This document shows positions 36,665-45,878 of a stretch of DNA of 64,000 bases, piece after piece. Each line of letters starts with the position of its first letter. Position 1 is the stretch's first letter. Position numbers and translations under genes: made by a program. The stretch comes from an uncultured Bryobacteraceae bacterium. GTDB taxonomy: Bacteria; Acidobacteriota; Terriglobia; Bryobacterales; Bryobacteraceae. Under the pieces are notes generated by a model. That model had not been told where the DNA came from. It ran no database searches and saw only the letters and a list, made by a program, of their open reading frames with translations. Where the stretch lies: positions 186,001 to 250,000 of the forward strand of contig CALDSU010000004.1 in assembly GCA_937924525.1 (NCBI GenBank), given 5' to 3'.

Positions 36665-37249
36665 GTGTCCAAGCTGAAAGACCTCGAGCAGCGCCTCGAG
36701 CGTGCCGAACAGCAACTACGCCTCTTCCAGCGGGTTAGCCGGTTTCTTGTAAAGGACATCAGTCTCCCTGACGTTTTGCAGGGCATCGTGTCGCTGGTGG
36801 TGGAGTACATGCAGTGCGACTCCTGTCTGATTTACCTCAAAGACGGAAACGAACTCGTGCTGTGCGCGTCGAGCCATCCCAACCCGGGCGCGATTGGCCG
36901 CGTCCGCCTGCGCTTGGACGAGGGGCTCACCGGCTGGGTGTCCCGGGAGCGCCGTTTGCTGGCGATATCCCGGGAGGCCTACAATGATTCGCGGTTTAAG
37001 CGGTTCAACGAACTGCCCGAGGATACCTACGAGGCATTCCTTTCCGCTCCGGTGATTGCGCGCAACCGGGTGGTGGGTGTGATCAACGTGCAACATCGGG
37101 CGCCGCATCCCCACACGGGCGCGGAGATGGAAGCGCTGACCACGCTGGGCGAGCAGATCGGGTGCGCCCTGGTGCTGGCGCGGCTGGATTCGGAGTCCCT
37201 GGCGGCGGCGAACCACGCCGAGTGGGTGCTCGCCGCGGTCCGCCGCTGA
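36665..37249 (+). CDS. GAF-domain protein
   Basis: 194 residues from a GTG at 36665 with AAGGGGA just upstream. An N-terminal coiled coil (KDLEQRLERAEQQLRLFQRV) leads into one GAF domain of about 150 residues: LPDVLQGIVSLVVEYMQCDSC (shortened), IYLKDGNELVL, LDEGLTGWVSRERRLLAI, then APVIARNRVVGVINVQHR. GAF domains bind small ligands or act in signalling. No output domain is attached, so it likely works by dimerising through the coiled coil or with a partner. It is followed after 8 bp by the BNR-repeat gene and is divergent from the MPN-like gene. Confidence 0.88.
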   Translation: MSKLKDLEQRLERAEQQLRLFQRVSRFLVKDISLPDVLQGIVSLVVEYMQCDSCLIYLKDGNELVLCASSHPNPGAIGRVRLRLDEGLTGWVSRERRLLAISREAYNDSRFKRFNELPEDTYEAFLSAPVIARNRVVGVINVQHRAPHPHTGAEMEALTTLGEQIGCALVLARLDSESLAAANHAEWVLAAVRR

Positions 37250-37257
37250 GCAGAAGG

Positions 37258-38349
37258 ATGTGCGTCCGGCTGATCGCGGGGCCGTTGCTGGCGGCGGCGT
37301 TGCTGGCGGCTCAGCCTCGCTGGGAACTGCAATACTTCCACGACGAAGACGAGGCCAGCCTCGCGCTCGCCGATTTACAGTTTCCTTCGAACCGGCGGGG
37401 CGTCGCCGTTGGGGTACTGACCGCCAAAGGACGGACTCAGCCGGTATGCCTCGTCACCGCCGATGGCGGCGTGAAGTGGAGTACGGTGCGACTCCGGGCC
37501 GAACCCGTCTCGCTTTTTTTCCTTGATGACAGTTCGGGCTGGATGGTCACCGGCGATGGGCTGTGGGTCACCGAAGAGTCTGGTCTCACTTGGCGGAAGC
37601 TTGGGGCGCCGAAGGATCTGTTGCGGGTCCACTTCTTGGATTCACAACGGGGATTCGGCGTCGGATTGCAGCGGAAAGCCTGGCGGACTACCGATGGCGG
37701 CAAGAACTGGGAACGCATCCGGGAGACCGTTGAAATGAGCGGGGATCCCAATCGCGTGGTGCTGGGCTGGATCGAGTTCCTGGACCAGCGGCGCGGGCTC
37801 ATTACAGGTTGGAACCGCTCCCGCAGCGAGGAGAGCGATCTCCCCGACTGGATGGACCCCCAGCGTCCCAAACGCCGCGTGCGACCGACTCTAAGTGTGA
37901 CGCTCGAGACCAACGATGGAGGACGGACCTGGACCCCGTCCAGTTCATCCATGTTTGGCAGGGTCACGCGGACGCGCTTCGACCAGAGGGGAACTTTGTG
38001 GCTGGTCGAATTCCCGAGCCACTTCGACTGGCCGAGCGAGGTGTTCTGGTCGCAATGGAGATCCTCAGAGGCCAGCAGAGTTTTTCGCACCAAAGAGGTG
38101 CGGGTCACCGACGTCATGTGGCGCCAGGAGTACGCCTATGTGGCGGGCGTGGCGCACCGCGGCCAACTGGCGGAGTCACCGGTGCCCGCGCCGGTTCGCG
38201 TGCTCCGGAGCAGGGACCTGAGCCATTGGGAAGACATGGAGGCCGACTACCGGGCGGTGGCGAGGCGCGTGTTTCTGGCGGCGAGCCGAGAGGGCGGATT
38301 GTGGCTGGCCACGGATACGGGGATGATCCTGCGCCTGGCGGAGCGCTGA
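37258..38349 (+). CDS. Secreted BNR/Ycf48-like beta-propeller protein
   Basis: 363 residues from ATG at 37258, 5 bp after an AAGG. A signal peptide is clear (LIAGPLLAAALLAAQ). Repeats of the Asp-box kind recur: TADGGVKW, TEESGLTW, TTDGGKNW and TNDGGRTW, each in a four-strand blade, as in Ycf48/HCF136-like assembly factors and BNR glycosidases. A proline- and arginine-rich insert breaks the series after blade three. No catalytic residues of a sialidase were found, so a binding or assembly role is more likely. It is probably co-transcribed with the GAF gene. Confidence 0.8.
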   Translation: MCVRLIAGPLLAAALLAAQPRWELQYFHDEDEASLALADLQFPSNRRGVAVGVLTAKGRTQPVCLVTADGGVKWSTVRLRAEPVSLFFLDDSSGWMVTGDGLWVTEESGLTWRKLGAPKDLLRVHFLDSQRGFGVGLQRKAWRTTDGGKNWERIRETVEMSGDPNRVVLGWIEFLDQRRGLITGWNRSRSEESDLPDWMDPQRPKRRVRPTLSVTLETNDGGRTWTPSSSSMFGRVTRTRFDQRGTLWLVEFPSHFDWPSEVFWSQWRSSEASRVFRTKEVRVTDVMWRQEYAYVAGVAHRGQLAESPVPAPVRVLRSRDLSHWEDMEADYRAVARRVFLAASREGGLWLATDTGMILRLAER

Positions 38350-38480
38350 AACGTTTTCCTCACGCTTTGTTTTTTCCACACCGGTTCCACGGGAGATGCT
38401 TGCTATGTATCTCAAAAGAAGCCCTTTATTTCTTGAGGAAATCGACACGAAATTGTCATTTTTCTCTTGAACTTCCGCCG
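38350..38480. other. A/T-rich spacer between the BNR gene and the structured region
   Basis: This stretch is richer in A and T than its surroundings. TTTTCCACA near 38372 is 8 of 9 to a DnaA box, probably by chance. GACA/TGTC with a CGAAAT loop near 38444-38457 is followed by ATTTTTCTC and may be a weak terminator of the BNR gene. TTGAAC at 38467-38472 is the best -35-like hexamer but its -10 partner (CATGCT at 38490) is poor. Confidence 0.35.
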
Positions 38481-39148
38481 CGGTTGAGCCATGCTGGAGA
38501 CGGTTCCAAGAGGTTCGAGGAAGCAACGAGCCGCGGGGGACGTAACGAACCGGAAGCGTTGAAGCTGCTCCCGAGCATTTCGATGAGCGGGGGAGGCGGA
38601 GCAACTGGGAAACGGGCGTACTTCGACGGCGGGCTTCCGGAGGACGGTTGGGAAACCGTGATGAACTGGAGGGGTCGCCAGGCCCCGAAGGGGAGCGGGA
38701 GCCCGATCTGAATTCGGACCGGGATCGAACCGGGGAGCAACGGAAGCCGGGACCCCTAGCGGCTCGAGAGCGAAGGGAAACGGTCTCGAACGGGCTCCAA
38801 CGTCGGACTCGGGAGTCAACCAGACGCGCCGGGAACGTTGACCTCGCGCCGGACGCCGGTAACACGGCGGCTGACGTGGGCGAGCGAAAGGCGTGCTGGA
38901 AGAATCGGCCCCGGACGTTCTGGATTTGCTGAGGCGCCTGGGAGCGTTGAGCCGGCTTTTCGTAATCAGTAAGGCCGGGGAGCGAGCAGGATGTCTTCCT
39001 TCCGGAACGCACCGCACCGTCCGGACTGAGCTAGCCGGTGGCGGGCGGAGTTGGGGACTTGGGTCACTTGGAACCACTTCCGTTTTTGAGAGCGCTTTCC
39101 GAACCGGCTCGATTCCTTGGCGGGAAAACGAGCCGGTTTCGTGTTTTT
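38480..39148 (+). ncRNA. Candidate long structured non-coding RNA, about 650 nt
   Basis: No reading frame on either strand has a credible product: translations are Arg/Pro/Ser-rich, as seen when structural RNA is translated. The plus strand is rich in A and G, and folds by eye into many perfect stems. These are GGTTCG/CGAACC (38512/38546), ACGGTT/AACCGT closed by a GGGA tetraloop (38644-38659), GTCAAC/GTTGAC (38815/38837), CGCCG/CGGCG (38854-38869), CCGGC/GCCGG near 38952-38978, and an 8-bp stem with one bulge at 39001-39025. It ends in a strong terminator at 39102-39148. The start is uncertain because no clear promoter was found. No known RNA family is recognised. Confidence 0.45.
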
Positions 39149-42100
39149 GCGGTCCCCGCTCCTCGCTCGATTGCGGTTACGTAGGCCAGCGGATACGGCG
39201 CCAGGCATGCGTACATCGCCAGGATCTTGCCGAATCCCCGTCCGGCTCGCGCCTCTCCGCCAAAAGACTCCATATTCTCTAGCGCCCGCTCCGCCGCCTG
39301 GCGCAGCACGGCCTTCAGCCGATCGCCGCCGGCACGCCGGTGCGCGAAAACCATGCCGTCCAGCAGCAGGAAATTCAGTGCATCGGCGGCTTCCAACGCG
39401 CTGGCCCGCGGGCAGGAACTGTACTTGAAGCGGCCCGCCTCCGGCACCCACAGGTGGTTTAACAGAAACTCCGCCCCGCGCTCGACCGCCTGCGCGGCGC
39501 GTTCATCGCCCGTCAGCGCGAAGTAGCGCCGCAAGCCGGCCAGCATCACGCCCTGCATGTAGCCCAGCTCTCCGCGATGTTCCGGTTCGTTCGGATGCGA
39601 GCAGATATGCAGGCGGTTCCAACCGCCGTCGGCCTCCTGTCTTTCCAGCGCCCGTTCCACGATCAGCCTGGCGGCGTTCAGGTGGACCGGATCCCCCGTG
39701 GCCTGGTAGACGGCGGTGGTCAGCACCAGGTGCCAACCGGCGATGCGAGCGTCGGCGAAGTCGTAAGCGCGGGTTTCGTAAATGCCGTAGCGGTCCGCGA
39801 CTTTGCGGCTGGTCTCGAGCGAGCGGCGGTCGCCGGTCAGGTAATAGTAGTTGAGGTGGCCGTCCACGAACACGTGATCGACCGTGAGAATTCCCACCGC
39901 GATTCCCTGGTTCGGCACGGGGCTTTGCGCCCAGTAGCCTCCGGTGTGCCCGATGGCGTGGTGGTAGGCGCCGCCCACGCGGGACCCCTCGCGATGGCCC
40001 TGAATGGTGTCTACATCGCGATGGTGCCACTCGGCCTCCTCGGCGATCCGGAAAAAGCGCATATCCCCCGTGCGGAGGAACTGAAGCAGCATGGCGTTCG
40101 CCATATCGTATTCGCAGTTACCCCAGTTGATCCCGCGCTCGCCCCACCAGTCGCCGAAATTCAGCATGCCGTAAGCGCGGTCCCGCTCGCGATCCTCCAG
40201 GTAGTCGTCAACCGCGCGGGCGATAGCGGCGTCGTACCGCGCGGCCAGGCCCGGAGCGCCCGGCGCGGGCATCTCGCCAAACACGCGGCTTCCCACGTAC
40301 CAGGCGGGTGAGGCTAACGCCAACAAGGGCGCGCGCTGCGTCTCTACCGGCGAGGTCACGGGCTCGGCCGCAGGCCGCAAGTCCAGCCAGAATTCGTGTG
40401 TCTTGCTCATCCCCTGGCGGATGTCATACCGGCCGTGCCGCAGGTAAAAGTACAGCCGGTGTTCATCCACCGTGCCCCGCGCCGCTGCGTAGGAATCCGC
40501 CGGGAGTTCCGGGCAAAGGCCAAACTCGATGCCGCGGGGCGTCACGGCGATCTCTTTGGGGTAGTTCTGCCAGAAGTCTCGGGCGGCGAGCGCGACCCGG
40601 TAGCGCGGGTTGGACCACTGGGCCCAACCGTTGGCGCGGCGGCCGGTTTCCCGTTCGCCGGCGCCGGCAAGGAAAGTATACCGGTCATCAGTGTCCTGGC
40701 GAAGGCGGGCGGTCTCCGCGGGCGATTCGCCGCGCCGCCCTTCCAGGTTCCAGGCGGTCCGTTCCTCGCCCAGCGGCAGCTGGAGCATTAGTTGGCGGAT
40801 GCGCGTGAACTCCGCCGCCCCGTGATCGTTCTCGAAGGTGTAGCGCACACGCAGAAAAGGCTGTCCCGCGTAAGCGTCCAGACGAAGGACGTAGCCGAAC
40901 AACGTCTCGCCGGCGGCATTCCGGTGGTGTCCGCGCACCAGGACGGAGGCGCGCACTGGACCTCGTTCTTCGACGGCGACCTCGTCTGGCGGGCCGAGGG
41001 TCCGGAACGGCTGGCCCTGCTCATCCCGGAGCACGAATTCGGCAGGGGCGGCGGGCGATAGGATCCGCTCCCCTTTGCGGAACACCCCGTCCCGGTTGGC
41101 GTCGAGCCACAGAGACTCCAGGAAACCCGAGTTCCGCCGCGCGATGGTAAAGCGCAGCGGGCCGGTGGTGATGTCGACCTGATCGGGAGTTTCGTTGACC
41201 CGGAGCGGGCCTGCCGGTGCGCGCCGGCGCACGGCCGAGCCGTATTCCAGCCGGTACGCTCCGCTGGCTTTGCCCAAAAAGTCCACCAGCGCCCACTTCA
41301 CCGCGCCTCCCGGCCAGCGAGCCAGCACGGAGGCTTGCAGCGGCGTCTCCCGGCCGGCGGCGTCCAGCAGACGGAGACCCGCCGCCGAGCCCAGCGCGCC
41401 TTCCGGGAACGGAATCCCTGAAGACACCGGAAACGGCGCATCCGGAGCCCTGGCATCGGAACTCTGGACGGTGAGCGGAAGACGCGCCCGCCGGACCGTG
41501 CCAGCCGGTTCGCGCGGCGCATCCAACCGCACGGTCTGCCATGGCGTTTCCGCCGCTTCTCCAGACCGGGCGCCCGCGCGGATCCGGAAGCGGTACGTGC
41601 GCCCCCACTCGAGGCCGGACCGGATGACGCGGTGGTTGCGCACGGGTGTGTCTTCCGCCTGAGTCTCCACCTGCTGAACCCCAGCCGCTTGCCACTCCAG
41701 GGTTGCGGCGGCCGGCCAGTTGGTCAGCCAACCCACGGTCACCCGGCGGCCGGCGGCGTCGGGCACGGCCATCACGTGACGGATGGTCAGCTCCGGACGC
41801 CGGGGCGCGGGCCGGGCGGCGAGCAGGTACATCGCTTCGATGCGATATGCGCCCTCCCCGGTGAGCGTCTCGAAGTGCACCATTTCCCCGCCGCGAAATT
41901 CGACGGGTTGCGTCAGGAAAAACAGCCGCTCGCGCCGGTCGTCCAGGTTGGCGAAAGCGGCGCCCTGCTCGCGATCGTCCACCGAAATGCGGATACGCTC
42001 ATCGCCCGGCCCGTCGTAGATCTGAATCGCGGGATGGTAGCTTCCCGGTGTGCGGACGCTGACGGACAGACGCCCCCTGCGGTCACTCAGCCGGACCGAC

Positions 42101-42306
42101 GGAACGCGGACGGGCGACCGGTCGTCGGTGAACCCCTCGCGCTGGGCCTCGTGCGGCGCGAAGCGAACGTTCTTCGGGTCCGCGGCGATGGCCTCGAGGA
42201 CGTCCAATCCCCAGGTGGACTCGACGCGGTTTGGCGGATCGGCCGCCGCCGGTGCGCCGATCGCCAGCATCGACCATAGGGCGCCTGGCGCCCACGCGGT
42301 CCGCAT
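39064..42306 (-). CDS. Exo-rhamnogalacturonan lyase-like protein (PcRGLX/YetA type)
   Basis: 1080 residues from ATG at 42306, where a signal peptide begins (ALWSMLAIGAPAAA). Residues 60-165 form a carbohydrate-binding-like sandwich, and 165-255 an FN3-like domain (RTYRFRIRAG). From about 285, FPVSSGIPFPEGALGSA and RWPGGAVKWALVDFLG match the first RIFT-barrel domain of PcRGLX/YetA proteins. The last third is an alpha/alpha toroid with EWHHRDVDTIQGHREGS and AYHHAIGHTGGYW. Relatives remove disaccharides from the ends of rhamnogalacturonan I. The final 35 codons overlap the antisense terminator at 39102-39148 and look added beyond the conserved end near AYVTAIE. It follows the ceramidase-like gene by 52 bp. 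Confidence 0.78.
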   Translation of the reverse strand: MRTAWAPGALWSMLAIGAPAAADPPNRVESTWGLDVLEAIAADPKNVRFAPHEAQREGFTDDRSPVRVPSVRLSDRRGRLSVSVRTPGSYHPAIQIYDGPGDERIRISVDDREQGAAFANLDDRRERLFFLTQPVEFRGGEMVHFETLTGEGAYRIEAMYLLAARPAPRRPELTIRHVMAVPDAAGRRVTVGWLTNWPAAATLEWQAAGVQQVETQAEDTPVRNHRVIRSGLEWGRTYRFRIRAGARSGEAAETPWQTVRLDAPREPAGTVRRARLPLTVQSSDARAPDAPFPVSSGIPFPEGALGSAAGLRLLDAAGRETPLQASVLARWPGGAVKWALVDFLGKASGAYRLEYGSAVRRRAPAGPLRVNETPDQVDITTGPLRFTIARRNSGFLESLWLDANRDGVFRKGERILSPAAPAEFVLRDEQGQPFRTLGPPDEVAVEERGPVRASVLVRGHHRNAAGETLFGYVLRLDAYAGQPFLRVRYTFENDHGAAEFTRIRQLMLQLPLGEERTAWNLEGRRGESPAETARLRQDTDDRYTFLAGAGERETGRRANGWAQWSNPRYRVALAARDFWQNYPKEIAVTPRGIEFGLCPELPADSYAAARGTVDEHRLYFYLRHGRYDIRQGMSKTHEFWLDLRPAAEPVTSPVETQRAPLLALASPAWYVGSRVFGEMPAPGAPGLAARYDAAIARAVDDYLEDRERDRAYGMLNFGDWWGERGINWGNCEYDMANAMLLQFLRTGDMRFFRIAEEAEWHHRDVDTIQGHREGSRVGGAYHHAIGHTGGYWAQSPVPNQGIAVGILTVDHVFVDGHLNYYYLTGDRRSLETSRKVADRYGIYETRAYDFADARIAGWHLVLTTAVYQATGDPVHLNAARLIVERALERQEADGGWNRLHICSHPNEPEHRGELGYMQGVMLAGLRRYFALTGDERAAQAVERGAEFLLNHLWVPEAGRFKYSSCPRASALEAADALNFLLLDGMVFAHRRAGGDRLKAVLRQAAERALENMESFGGEARAGRGFGKILAMYACLAPYPLAYVTAIERGAGTAKTRNRLVFPPRNRAGSESALKNGSGSK
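39102..39148 (+). terminator. Intrinsic terminator of the structured-RNA region
   Basis: AACCGGCTCG (39102-39111) pairs perfectly with CGAGCCGGTT (39129-39138) over ten base pairs around a 17-nt loop, followed by TCGTGTTTTT. The T-run exists only in the plus orientation. It lies inside the last codons of the minus-strand lyase gene. Confidence 0.65.
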
Positions 42307-42358
42307 GCGTTTCCTCCTCGCCTTTCTCCGCCGGTTGCCCGCCGAGCGCCGCCCGGCC

Positions 42359-43732
42359 TTACCCACCCAGCGACCGCAGCGCCGCCAGGGATTCCGCGAC
42401 GGCCGCCGCTCCGGCATCCCGGGTGAAGGGAAGCTCGCGAATCGCTTTCGGGACGTGCAGGGAAGCGTAACTCATGCGGTCGACTTCGTAGGCGTCGGGC
42501 AGGTAGCTCACCGACCCGTTCGCGTAGCCAAGGATCAGCAGGTCTTCGTGCGGCCAGCCCTGGCGGATTTCCAGCGCCAGCGTGCTGAAGAACTCGGCGG
42601 GGTTGGTCACCACCCACGCGTCGCCGATCCGCATCGCCTGGAAATGCGCGCGCCGCGTCTCCGGCTGGGTTTCGAGCAGCGGCAGCGCATGCTCGCCCCA
42701 CCGCACCGCGAAGCGGGAGACCGCTTCCACGGCGCGTTCCACGCTGCCCCCGTAACGTTCGGGCAGCCGGTGAGGGAAGCAGACCACCTTGCTGGCGATG
42801 CCGTTGACCCAATCGGTGGTGTCCCCCGTCGCCAGCCGGTGCTTGCCCTCGTCGTACATGCTCAGGACTTCTTCCCGCGTCCAGCGGCGGACGGGCAGCA
42901 GTCCCTCGCGTTCCACCGCCGCGATGCCCGGCGTAGTGATCTCGCGGGCGGATTCGAGCGCCCGGCGCGCGGCTTCGAACACGATCGCACCCGCCTCGCG
43001 ATAGCGCTCCGGGGTCCAGTAGGCGAGCTTCGGCTGCGAGTCGCCGCACGATCCTTGAAGATAGAGGGCGGTGACGCCCGGCCAGGTTTCTTCGATCAGG
43101 TCTACGACGTGGCCAGGCCAGTCGCGGGAGACGGAACGGGGTTCCACCTGCCAGAACACCGTGGGGTGGGTATGGAAGTTGATGGCGGCCGCCAGCGGAC
43201 TGCCGTCCGCGCGGATGACCCACAGCGCGCCCAGCCGCTCGTCCACCGGCCCGCCCTCGCGCGTGCGGTTATAGCTGAACCCCGTCAGCCTGGCCGCTCC
43301 CACTTGCAGGCGCGCGGGTTCGCGAGCGCGCCACGCTCCGATGATCGCCTGCGCCGTCCTGGCGATGGTCTGTTCGACATAGTCGCCGCTGACTTCGCCG
43401 GCGCCGTCGAACAACGCCATGGTCGGCGCATTGTGGCTATGGGAGCAGTTCACGCAAATCGCTTCCGGGCGCAGGCCGGTCTCGGCGGCGGCCCGCGCGC
43501 GAATCGCCTCGACCGCCGGCCGGTCCGCATAGAGCACATCGAGCGCGGTCAAGGCCACGCTCTGGCCGCGCTCGTCGCTCAGCACCAGCGCCGTGGCGTG
43601 CAGATCGTCATGCACGCGGTCCCAAGTGCGGTTCAGGTAATAGCCGAGTCCCGCCAGTTCGACGCCCGGCGGAGGCGTAATGATCGTGCGGGCGACTCCG
43701 GCTTGCCACATCGGGGTTTGCTGCGCGGACAT
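42359..43732 (-). CDS. Neutral/alkaline ceramidase-superfamily hydrolase
   Basis: 457 residues. No signal peptide is obvious, so it may be cytoplasmic. The N-terminal layout is that of neutral ceramidase: ARTIITPPPGVELAGLGYY, LTALDVLY, then CVNCSHSHNAP whose two His are zinc ligands, and AINFHTHPTVF with further metal or catalytic His. YLQGSCGDSQPK aligns with the NGDxSP-like loop that carries the nucleophilic Ser in ceramidases, and NPAEFFSTLALEIRQ follows. Many bacterial members hydrolyse other amides or esters, so ceramide as substrate is uncertain. A GGAGAA precedes the ATG. It leads a two-gene run with the lyase-like protein. Confidence 0.82.
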   Translation of the reverse strand: MSAQQTPMWQAGVARTIITPPPGVELAGLGYYLNRTWDRVHDDLHATALVLSDERGQSVALTALDVLYADRPAVEAIRARAAAETGLRPEAICVNCSHSHNAPTMALFDGAGEVSGDYVEQTIARTAQAIIGAWRAREPARLQVGAARLTGFSYNRTREGGPVDERLGALWVIRADGSPLAAAINFHTHPTVFWQVEPRSVSRDWPGHVVDLIEETWPGVTALYLQGSCGDSQPKLAYWTPERYREAGAIVFEAARRALESAREITTPGIAAVEREGLLPVRRWTREEVLSMYDEGKHRLATGDTTDWVNGIASKVVCFPHRLPERYGGSVERAVEAVSRFAVRWGEHALPLLETQPETRRAHFQAMRIGDAWVVTNPAEFFSTLALEIRQGWPHEDLLILGYANGSVSYLPDAYEVDRMSYASLHVPKAIRELPFTRDAGAAAVAESLAALRSLGG

Positions 43733-45619: not shown

Positions 45620-45625
45620 GAAACG

Positions 45626-45816
45626 TCTGATAGAGGCGCGGAGGCGAAGAGTACCCTGGCTGCGGTGACCGCCCGTTCGGGAGGCCGGGGGAAAGGCGCC
45701 TGGGAGTAGTTTCCGCCGAAGCCAGGCCAGCGACGGGAGCGGTCAGGGCTGGGGGCCTGTGGCGAAGAGCCGGGCCACTGTCATCCGCGGTTCGCCGCGG
45801 ATGGAGCGCTATCAGG
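45626..45816 (+). promoter_or_regulatory. Lysine riboswitch (L-box)
   Basis: The aptamer matches known lysine riboswitches in order. Helix P1 is TGATAG (45628-45633) with CTATCA (45809-45814), extended by C-G and G-U pairs. Core segments follow: AGAGGCGCGG, GAAGAGTA (loop-E-like turn), GGAAAGGCGCC, GCCGAAGCC (45715-45723), GGGCTGGGGGCC and the hallmark ACTGTCA (45777-45783). P5 is CATCCGCGG/CCGCGGATG around a TTCG loop (45782-45803), followed by GGAGCG before P1 closes. It binds lysine and would lower expression of the six downstream lysine-pathway genes. No terminator with a T-run follows, so control may be at translation, or by Rho. Confidence 0.93.
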
Positions 45817-45878
45817 AAGCGCCCCATCTCCGCCTACCCGCTCGAGAGCAGCCTTCCTGCCCGCTCCCCATCACGCTT

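Follow-up and report, generated by a model that had tools for sequence, protein, structure and literature searches.

Nucleotides 38502-39075 on the plus strand of the window (the whole 64,000-nucleotide stretch of Bryobacteraceae DNA that was analysed) form one copy of a large structured RNA, which measures 574 nt here and about 600 nt in the class as a whole. This putative RNA, with its predicted transcript, almost certainly represents a real, previously uncatalogued class of structured RNA. It is apparently a stand-alone RNA gene of the Bryobacterales, vertically inherited in the chromosome and mostly present in a single copy. That this order might possess a long non-coding RNA of a new class had been proposed in a first-pass annotation of the sequence, and the proposal is now supported by homologs, by covariation and by the null result against Rfam.

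Extent, classification and distribution of the element

The conserved element is bounded by GGTTCCAAGAGG and CACTTGGAACC and is followed by a T-rich tail. In the aligned copies the start GGTTCCAAGAGGTT and the end TCACTTGGAACC are invariant, T-rich sequence comes after the end, and conservation stops downstream of the element 3' end. The span of 38480-39148 originally assigned to the RNA is therefore shifted with respect to the conserved element and takes in unconserved sequence. The main features at this level are as follows.

38502-39075, plus strand: large structured RNA (homology, comparative structure, excess of G.U pairs over A.C mismatches)
39076-39087, plus strand: T-rich tail after the closing helix P1, probable transcript end (T-rich run after CTTGGAACC in the full-length copies listed)
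39102-39138, plus strand: hairpin earlier described as the terminator, outside the element and within the 3' end of a minus-strand open reading frame

The inverted repeat of the earlier terminator is indeed present (39102-39114/39126-39138, with 92% of 13 nt complementary), but it does not belong to the conserved part: it starts 27 nt past the conserved 3' end and is unaligned in the 18-row alignment. Terminator-like hairpins within 150 nt downstream occur in 10/66 copies, including that of the window, versus 3/66 for a control stretch, so that the hairpin at 39102-39138 may be a local back-up terminator. Among inverted repeats of at least 12 nt in the region 38350-39200 only this repeat was found, so that the other perfect or near-perfect stems reported earlier are shorter. 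The minus-strand open reading frame 39064-42417, which encodes a PcRGLX-like protein and contains the hairpin, ends inside the last 12 nt of the RNA and thus forms a tail-to-tail gene overlap with it.

Open reading frames are present on paper at the locus (ORF list). When 18 copies including that of the window are compared, with frames counted from the element ends, all six frames are interrupted: for each of them there is at least one copy whose longest open run is as short as 33, 38, 48, 61, 65 and 39 codons, respectively. A protein-coding reading was rejected since no frame stays open across these 18 copies, which agrees with the earlier statement that the locus holds no credible gene. The plus strand of the window element is purine-rich, as had also been noticed, with a purine fraction of 0.59 (59%) and a G+C fraction of 0.65.

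The element belongs to no Rfam 15 family, as it does not reach the gathering score of any covariance model. In a search of the whole window only a lysine riboswitch elsewhere scores above the cut-off, and in the region 38300-39300 at E≤10 the best match has an E-value of 1.5 and is unrelated. For 19 of the 20 first-round loci (L017 included, though a non-homolog, and L008 left out) the sole match was to a tRNA in a flank, and the homologs themselves were unmatched. The Rfam check proposed in the first-pass annotation hence comes out null for the window copy and for its homologs alike. The families covered by this search presumably include OLE, GOLLD, ROOL and HEARO. The lysine riboswitch, the sole above-cut-off match in the window, lies at 45623-45819 on the plus strand and scores 59.8 bits. 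A disguised RNase P RNA and a disguised 6S RNA were both rejected, because the same genome contains an ordinary RNase P RNA (contig C8, 283.9 bits) and an ordinary 6S RNA (contig C16, 62.2 bits). In open-licence literature, searched by titles and abstract starts, no paper among the matches listed deals with the RNA. The Solibacter-1 motif, from the same broad group of Acidobacteria, is known here from its table row alone, where it is listed from the relative Solibacter usitatus with a '?' as to its being an RNA and with no Rfam number (PMC2864571). The RNA might be or contain this motif, and would then have been noticed already. This seems very doubtful, as the description of a motif from one genome alone presumably required it to occur there several times, and the present RNA occurs in one to three copies per genome.

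With the stretch of the first-pass annotation as DNA query, matches were obtained in 18/61 genomes, including the genome of origin, mostly as two end blocks. Of 20 loci fetched, 19 are matched in a profile search (nhmmer), and for most of them the match covers all 600-700 nt; L017 is spurious and has no nhmmer match, and L008 is cut by the end of its contig. A covariance model built on the first 128 positions of the element detects the RNA in 143/237 genomes of the family, in 96 of the 148 good-quality genomes and in 58/76 genera, so that homologs in related genomes, whose absence would have spoken against the original proposal, are plentiful. A second covariance model with more divergent sequences gives 144/237. 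Counted from the listing, the 143 positive genomes contain one match in 112 cases, two in 30 and three in one. Two genomes of a sister family (f2) of the same order are also positive, with E-values of 9e-21 and 7e-23, and among the matches listed for family f3 there is only one, with an E-value of 0.35. In a sample of 396 genomes from the phylum two are positive, both of which are family members, and in a sample of 399 genomes from the class 65 are positive, comprising 63 family members and two weak matches in a genus of family f7. The latter were dropped because they have no 3' end, are unmatched by the full profile and look coding-like (judged by eye).

An exact-pattern search over the GTDB species genomes returns 91 stretches, and 78 of the 80 listed titles are those of Acidobacteria-type organisms. 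The remaining titles are 'Arcobacter sp.' (L087), a metagenome-assembled genome with 66% GC in which the upstream gene falls into a cluster common to other carriers, and 'Acidimicrobiia' (L118), a metagenome-assembled genome whose contig has the same length as contig C5 of the family member G030. Viral contigs give no matches to one exact pattern, and phages and plasmids give no blastn match. In the samples searched, the RNA is confined to one order, in the family and f2.

About 40% of the family genomes have no match under both models, and the RNA has therefore either been lost or gone undetected in many lineages. The genera g5, g51 and g53 have no positives by either model, although several of their genomes are of good quality. 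Since they are absent from both the 143 and the 144 positives in spite of this quality, the RNA has probably been lost in these whole lineages, and a comparison of their gene content with that of carriers could point to its function.

The gene neighbourhood was compared for 76 copies with flanks (75 and that of the window). A BNR-type homolog of the window protein encoded at 37162-38349 lies directly upstream on the same strand in 29/76; downstream, on the opposite strand, there is a PabC-like gene in 33/76 and one for a zinc-ribbon protein in 21. Where a nearest downstream gene was called, it is convergent in 49 cases and co-directional in 20, by crude gene calls. Pfam assignments were made for the window proteins, among which are BNR/YCF48-like, GAF and PcRGLX-like proteins; the names PabC, zinc ribbon, GT9, JAB and HipA-like at other loci were given by eye. 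The recurring neighbours and the downstream orientation fit an independent, vertically inherited RNA gene. ROOL and GOLLD RNAs are often found in phages, and a mobile or phage-derived origin could be imagined here as well, given the 31 genomes with two or three copies and the different gene neighbourhoods in which copies are found. Such an origin is highly improbable in view of the recurring gene order described above, the restriction to one order in the samples searched, and the unmatched viral contigs (exact pattern), phages and plasmids.

Fold, kink-turn modules and the 3' hairpin

The 122 full occurrences reduce to 80 distinct sequences of 492-613 nt, and to 73 after copies at least 93% identical were dropped, with a mean identity of 55%. 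The structure rests on the sequence alignment of these 73 and was partly fitted to it. Covariation was assessed with a tree-shuffle test of our own in the spirit of R-scape, using a G statistic with product correction and a null in which substitutions are reshuffled along a FastTree tree (30 replicates). Ten column pairs have E<0.1 against this tree-based null, and nine of the ten exceed all null values; each pair is canonical in 88-100% of the sequences with several pair types; covarying pairs, which the first-pass annotation had named as a check on its proposal, are thus found. In the model of 136 pairs, 8932/9802 cells are canonical and 113 pairs show at least one double change. The canonical fraction is 91.1%, versus 33.7-46.6% with partners slid by 1-3 columns. 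An RNAalifold fold of the first, 17-row alignment contained 131 pairs, 92 of them with a double change.

Because the model was fitted to the 73 sequences, it was also applied to 14 held-out copies, which are what remains of 20 validation loci after the removal of three that had already been used and three (L236-L238) without recognisable ends, the latter still matching the profile. In the held-out copies 1409/1719 cells are canonical (82.0%), versus 34.1-47.5% when slid. G.U pairs (1525) greatly outnumber A.C mismatches (156), from which it follows that the plus strand is the RNA.

38502-38510, plus strand: P1 5' strand GGTTCCAAG, pairs with 39067-39075, 100% canonical
39067-39075, plus strand: P1 3' strand CTTGGAACC, conserved RNA end (comparative fold)
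38535-38624, plus strand: domain I (comparative fold)
38631-38911, plus strand: domain II, with three arms (comparative fold)
38915-39011, plus strand: domain III (comparative fold)
39025-39039, plus strand: 3' hairpin with a 7-nt loop, A-GCUAGC; self-complementary loop hexamer at 39030-39035, proposed kissing-loop contact

Helix P1 closes the molecule, and P2, with the consensus CAGC/GCUG, leads to the three domains. P1 is nearly invariant and 100% canonical (rounded) over the 73 sequences; single changes are seen in L021/L063 and in L138, and compensatory changes on both sides of one pair in the held-out copies L239, L243 and L252. The GNRA-closed stem previously assigned to 38644-38659 is a local hairpin of the window copy, whereas the comparative fold pairs this strand far away, and 38646-38652 can form 7 bp with 38702-38708 in the window (pairing read by eye).

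The most prominent feature of the fold is a single module, 5'-C-NNN-GA-UCC...GGGGA-G-3', which recurs in five places and consists of a C-helix pair, a 3-nt bulge, tandem G.A pairs and an NC-helix. The words GGGAAAC and CGAAC(C/G), which had earlier been noticed as recurring, are real and are read here as parts of the conserved k-turn strands and of the CGAACGGG/AACGGG motifs. The positions in the window are listed below.

38555-38565, plus strand: k-turn 1, bulged strand, intact in the window; partner 38596-38603; 68/73 fit
38596-38603, plus strand: k-turn 1, non-bulged strand (comparative fold)
38657-38667, plus strand: k-turn 2, bulged strand, does not fit in the window (-1 pair read as U.G); partner 38690-38698; 66/73 fit
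38690-38698, plus strand: k-turn 2, non-bulged strand (comparative fold)
38741-38792, plus strand: k-turn 3 region, degenerate in the window (small deletion, gap in the window row); 48/72 fit
38834-38846, plus strand: k-turn 4, bulged strand, intact in the window; partner 38877-38886; 61/72 fit
38877-38886, plus strand: k-turn 4, non-bulged strand (comparative fold)
38942-38955, plus strand: k-turn 5, bulged strand, intact in the window; partner 38975-38985; 55/72 fit
38975-38985, plus strand: k-turn 5, non-bulged strand (comparative fold)

The counts in this list are the numbers of sequences that fit the k-turn consensus when judged by a fixed set of criteria. Random window pairs from the same RNAs fit it in 1510/20000 cases (7.6%), and when the windows of the modules are shifted by 30-60 columns the fits number no more than 16/71. 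All five modules fit in 32/73 sequences, four in 28, three in 11 and two in 2, and in the held-out copies modules 1 to 5 fit in 10, 10, 6, 12 and 7 of 14. Modules 1, 4 and 5 fit in the copy of the window, unlike modules 2 and 3; in our reading module 2 is weakened by a U.G pair at -1 and module 3 has been lost to a small deletion. Most of these modules are very probably genuine k-turns, as predicted from their sequences. They share with the standard kink-turn (Kt-7 class) the C:G pair that closes the C-helix, the 3-nt bulge and the tandem G.A/A.G pairs, as well as U.G, A.G or C.C at the 3b:3n position. Actinomyces-1, drum, HOLDH and RAGATH-18 RNAs, in contrast, have one putative k-turn each. 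The 5'-domain model produces a second, weak match (E 0.006-0.025) about 290-460 nt downstream within the same RNA (G039:C389:4225, G033:C38:9132, G219:C101:203457, G173:C60:9638 and G037:C632:2354), which suggests that the domains may have arisen by internal duplication of the k-turn module.

The -1b:-1n pair is C:G in 287/298 fits (68/68, 65/66, 44/48, 56/61 and 54/55 for modules 1 to 5). The commonest 3b:3n combination is U.G in modules 1, 2, 3 and 5 and C.C in module 4; the commonest combinations listed include no Watson-Crick pair. According to the part of the published rules cited here, C:G at -1, a G at 3n or a C at 3b, and a non-Watson-Crick 3b:3n pair favour protein-free folding in metal ions (PMC8191799). 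L7Ae-type proteins (PF01248) were found in 0/121 genomes of the family, and 7/14 control genomes are positive. Given this agreement with the rules, and given that the family genomes searched yielded no L7Ae-type protein, the k-turns would be expected to fold by themselves in Mg2+ alone. The k-turns might instead dock a k-turn-binding protein, the scaffold working only as a ribonucleoprotein: a module repeated five times would be well matched to a protein bound in several copies, and the sections of the OLE work cited describe a need for the L7Ae homolog OapC at its k-turn (PMC9723947). We consider this possible but rather unlikely, given the null search for PF01248 and the fact that the k-turn sequences are those of classes folding without protein.

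The GGGGA strands of the modules call to mind CsrB and CsrC, which are stand-alone sponge RNAs with many GGA words. The present RNA resembles them in both respects, and CsrA occurs in 47/61 family genomes, so that titration of CsrA by the repeated GGA motifs could be envisaged. In the RNA described here, however, GGGGA lies in helices and internal loops opposite GAUCC and not in hairpin loops. In addition, the genome of the window (G000, 99.3% complete) has the RNA and no CsrA match, as have G003, G012, G021 and G033, while G004, G024 and G104 have CsrA and no match to the RNA. A CsrB-type sponge is accordingly extremely unlikely.

The loop of the 3' hairpin typically consists of one base followed by a hexamer, which is GCAUGC in 54 sequences, GCUAGC in 7 (including that of the window), GCGCGC in 1 and UCAUGA in 1. 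Strict palindromes thus account for 63/72 hexamers; 68/72 are self-complementary when G.U pairs are allowed and 4/72 are not, and L010 has no loop hexamer. In the held-out copies the 3' zone contains GCAUGC or GCUAGC in 11/14 cases, the exceptions being L242, L246 and L252. The two central, adjacent bases of the hexamer switch between AU and UA with at least 3 changes on the tree. As adjacent bases cannot pair within one chain, this switch is a signature of a dimer. The same argument from covariation of adjacent bases has been used for homodimer contacts of OLE and GOLLD RNAs, as the passages cited describe (PMC12286853). Judging from this pattern, the RNA probably homodimerises through the loop hexamer.

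Promoter and upstream region

The upstream region contains a conserved promoter of the sigma-70 type, which ends 6 nt before GGTTCC and places the predicted RNA 5' end at 38502. Conservation extends further, to about -165.

38467-38472, plus strand: -35 element TTGAAC, at the place of the conserved TTGAC
38490-38495, plus strand: -10 element CATGCT, with 6 nt between it and the RNA 5' end
38372-38380, plus strand: DnaA-box-like site TTTTCCACA, 130 bp before the RNA 5' end (consensus TTWTNCACA)
38385-38390, plus strand: half box TTCCAC, beginning 13 nt downstream of where the full box begins
38433-38441, plus strand: conserved upstream element TTGAGGAAA (upstream consensus)

Among the 74 copies with enough upstream DNA, with spacers of 16-18 nt allowed, 72 have TTGAC with a spacer of 17 or 18 nt, and the -35 element of the window is one of the other two. 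The lack of a clear promoter had been named as the weak point of the original proposal; TTGAAC and CATGCT, 17 nt apart, nevertheless occupy the place of the conserved promoter. Further conserved words between about -165 and -70 are AAAACA, gTAAc, TTGAaaACA and AATAAA, in addition to TTGAGGAAA.

TTWTNCACA is the DnaA consensus, in which the free position varies. An exact match to it lies within -150 to -100 in 62/73 copies, versus 0/73 for a control stretch, leaving 11/73 copies without an exact box there; in 56/73 copies the box starts between -132 and -128. Its free position likewise varies here, being C, T, G or A. In total, the 200 bp upstream of 76 copies contain 56 exact boxes, versus 3 in 556,662 other bases, and the site at 38372 is the only TTWTNCACA in the 64-kb window. 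The usual locus has one full box and a half box, with TNCAC at +13 in 52/55 half-box matches. In five pairs of copies from the same genome the exact box is present at both copies in three and at one only in two. We are slightly inclined to think that DnaA acts at this candidate site, to judge from the sequence and position of the box.

Alternatively, the conserved entity might be the DNA itself, a DnaA-titrating or origin-like site with the RNA as by-product or primer-like transcript. The fixed place of the box in most copies, its rarity elsewhere and the AT-rich, conserved upstream region would agree with this. Yet the RNA covaries over its length, a locus usually offers a single full box and a half box, and only three of the five same-genome pairs have the exact box at both copies. 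Furthermore, GC skew in G182 (80 samples of 20 kb, 1.6 Mb, giving a noisy curve) has its minimum at about 2.0 Mb, near dnaA (1.77 Mb), and its maximum at about 4.0 Mb, near the RNA (3.92 Mb). On the same noisy curve, identification of the RNA locus as oriC was rejected. A conserved DNA site as the primary entity is thus improbable. In G183 the RNA lies 0.29 Mb from dnaA, hence the position of the RNA with respect to this gene varies.

Exact DnaA boxes number 9 in G182 (4.4 Mb, one of them at the RNA) and 7 in G183, fewer than for a reversed-pattern control, and an exact TTATNCACA is present in none of six fetched dnaA loci (L148-L153). In view of this scarcity, the origin of the family may use non-consensus boxes.

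Proposed role and relation to known RNAs

Taken as a whole, the observations are explained by a self-dimerising RNA scaffold with predicted DnaA-tied synthesis, an explanation that we regard as reasonably likely. The sigma-70-type promoter would drive synthesis of an RNA from 38502, whose 5' and 3' ends would form P1. Three domains would hang from P1, with recurring internal loops that follow the k-turn consensus. The k-turns could fold in Mg2+ without protein and bend the arms into a compact particle, and two molecules might join by the kissing loop into a homodimer, either RNA-only or as the core of a ribonucleoprotein. In the manner of OLE, ROOL and GOLLD RNAs, such a homodimer would act as a structural scaffold. 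Less securely, synthesis may respond to DnaA through the box at -130, and therefore to replication or growth state.

One of the closest parallels is OLE RNA, which is described in the sections cited as a stand-alone, highly structured RNA of about 600 nt that contains a k-turn, and which forms homodimers with a kissing loop covarying at adjacent positions (PMC12286853, PMC9723947); the corresponding dimer is predicted here. The same sections describe one k-turn in OLE RNA, as opposed to the five modules found here (PMC12286853, PMC9723947). The present RNA differs further in having no Rfam match, in its different phylum and in its DnaA-box promoter, and the L7Ae-family partner of the OLE ribonucleoprotein (YbxF/OapC) is unmatched here (PF01248, 0/121). 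GOLLD and ROOL are large RNA-only homo-oligomers with kissing loops, some of them self-complementary, in the account cited (PMC12286853), and only the loop signature is shared with them. In contrast to GOLLD and ROOL, the RNA described here has no Rfam match, is chromosomal with a recurring gene order, and is unmatched in the viral, phage and plasmid sequences. The features of ornate homo-oligomers that can be read at the sequence level, a self-complementary loop and covariation of adjacent nucleotides, are both present.

Bacteria have few classes of large structured RNA, and several of these are still without a settled function. The RNA is widespread in bacteria that are known chiefly through environmental genomes, and it offers several handles: a defined promoter, a nearly invariant end helix, rule-bound predicted k-turns, a single hexamer that should govern dimer formation and a DnaA box. 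It also raises the question of what k-turns do in a lineage whose searched genomes gave no L7Ae-type protein. For a giant RNA, a promoter linked to DnaA would be an uncommon clue to function. In its boldest form, which we hold to be less likely than not, the proposal is that a protein-free homodimeric particle of self-folding k-turns, controlled by DnaA, couples a cell-scale process to the chromosome cycle. If this were true, the process that a structural RNA ties to the chromosome cycle might be the timing of replication, the organisation of the nucleoid or envelope, or the arrest of growth, and such coupling would span a whole order of soil bacteria.
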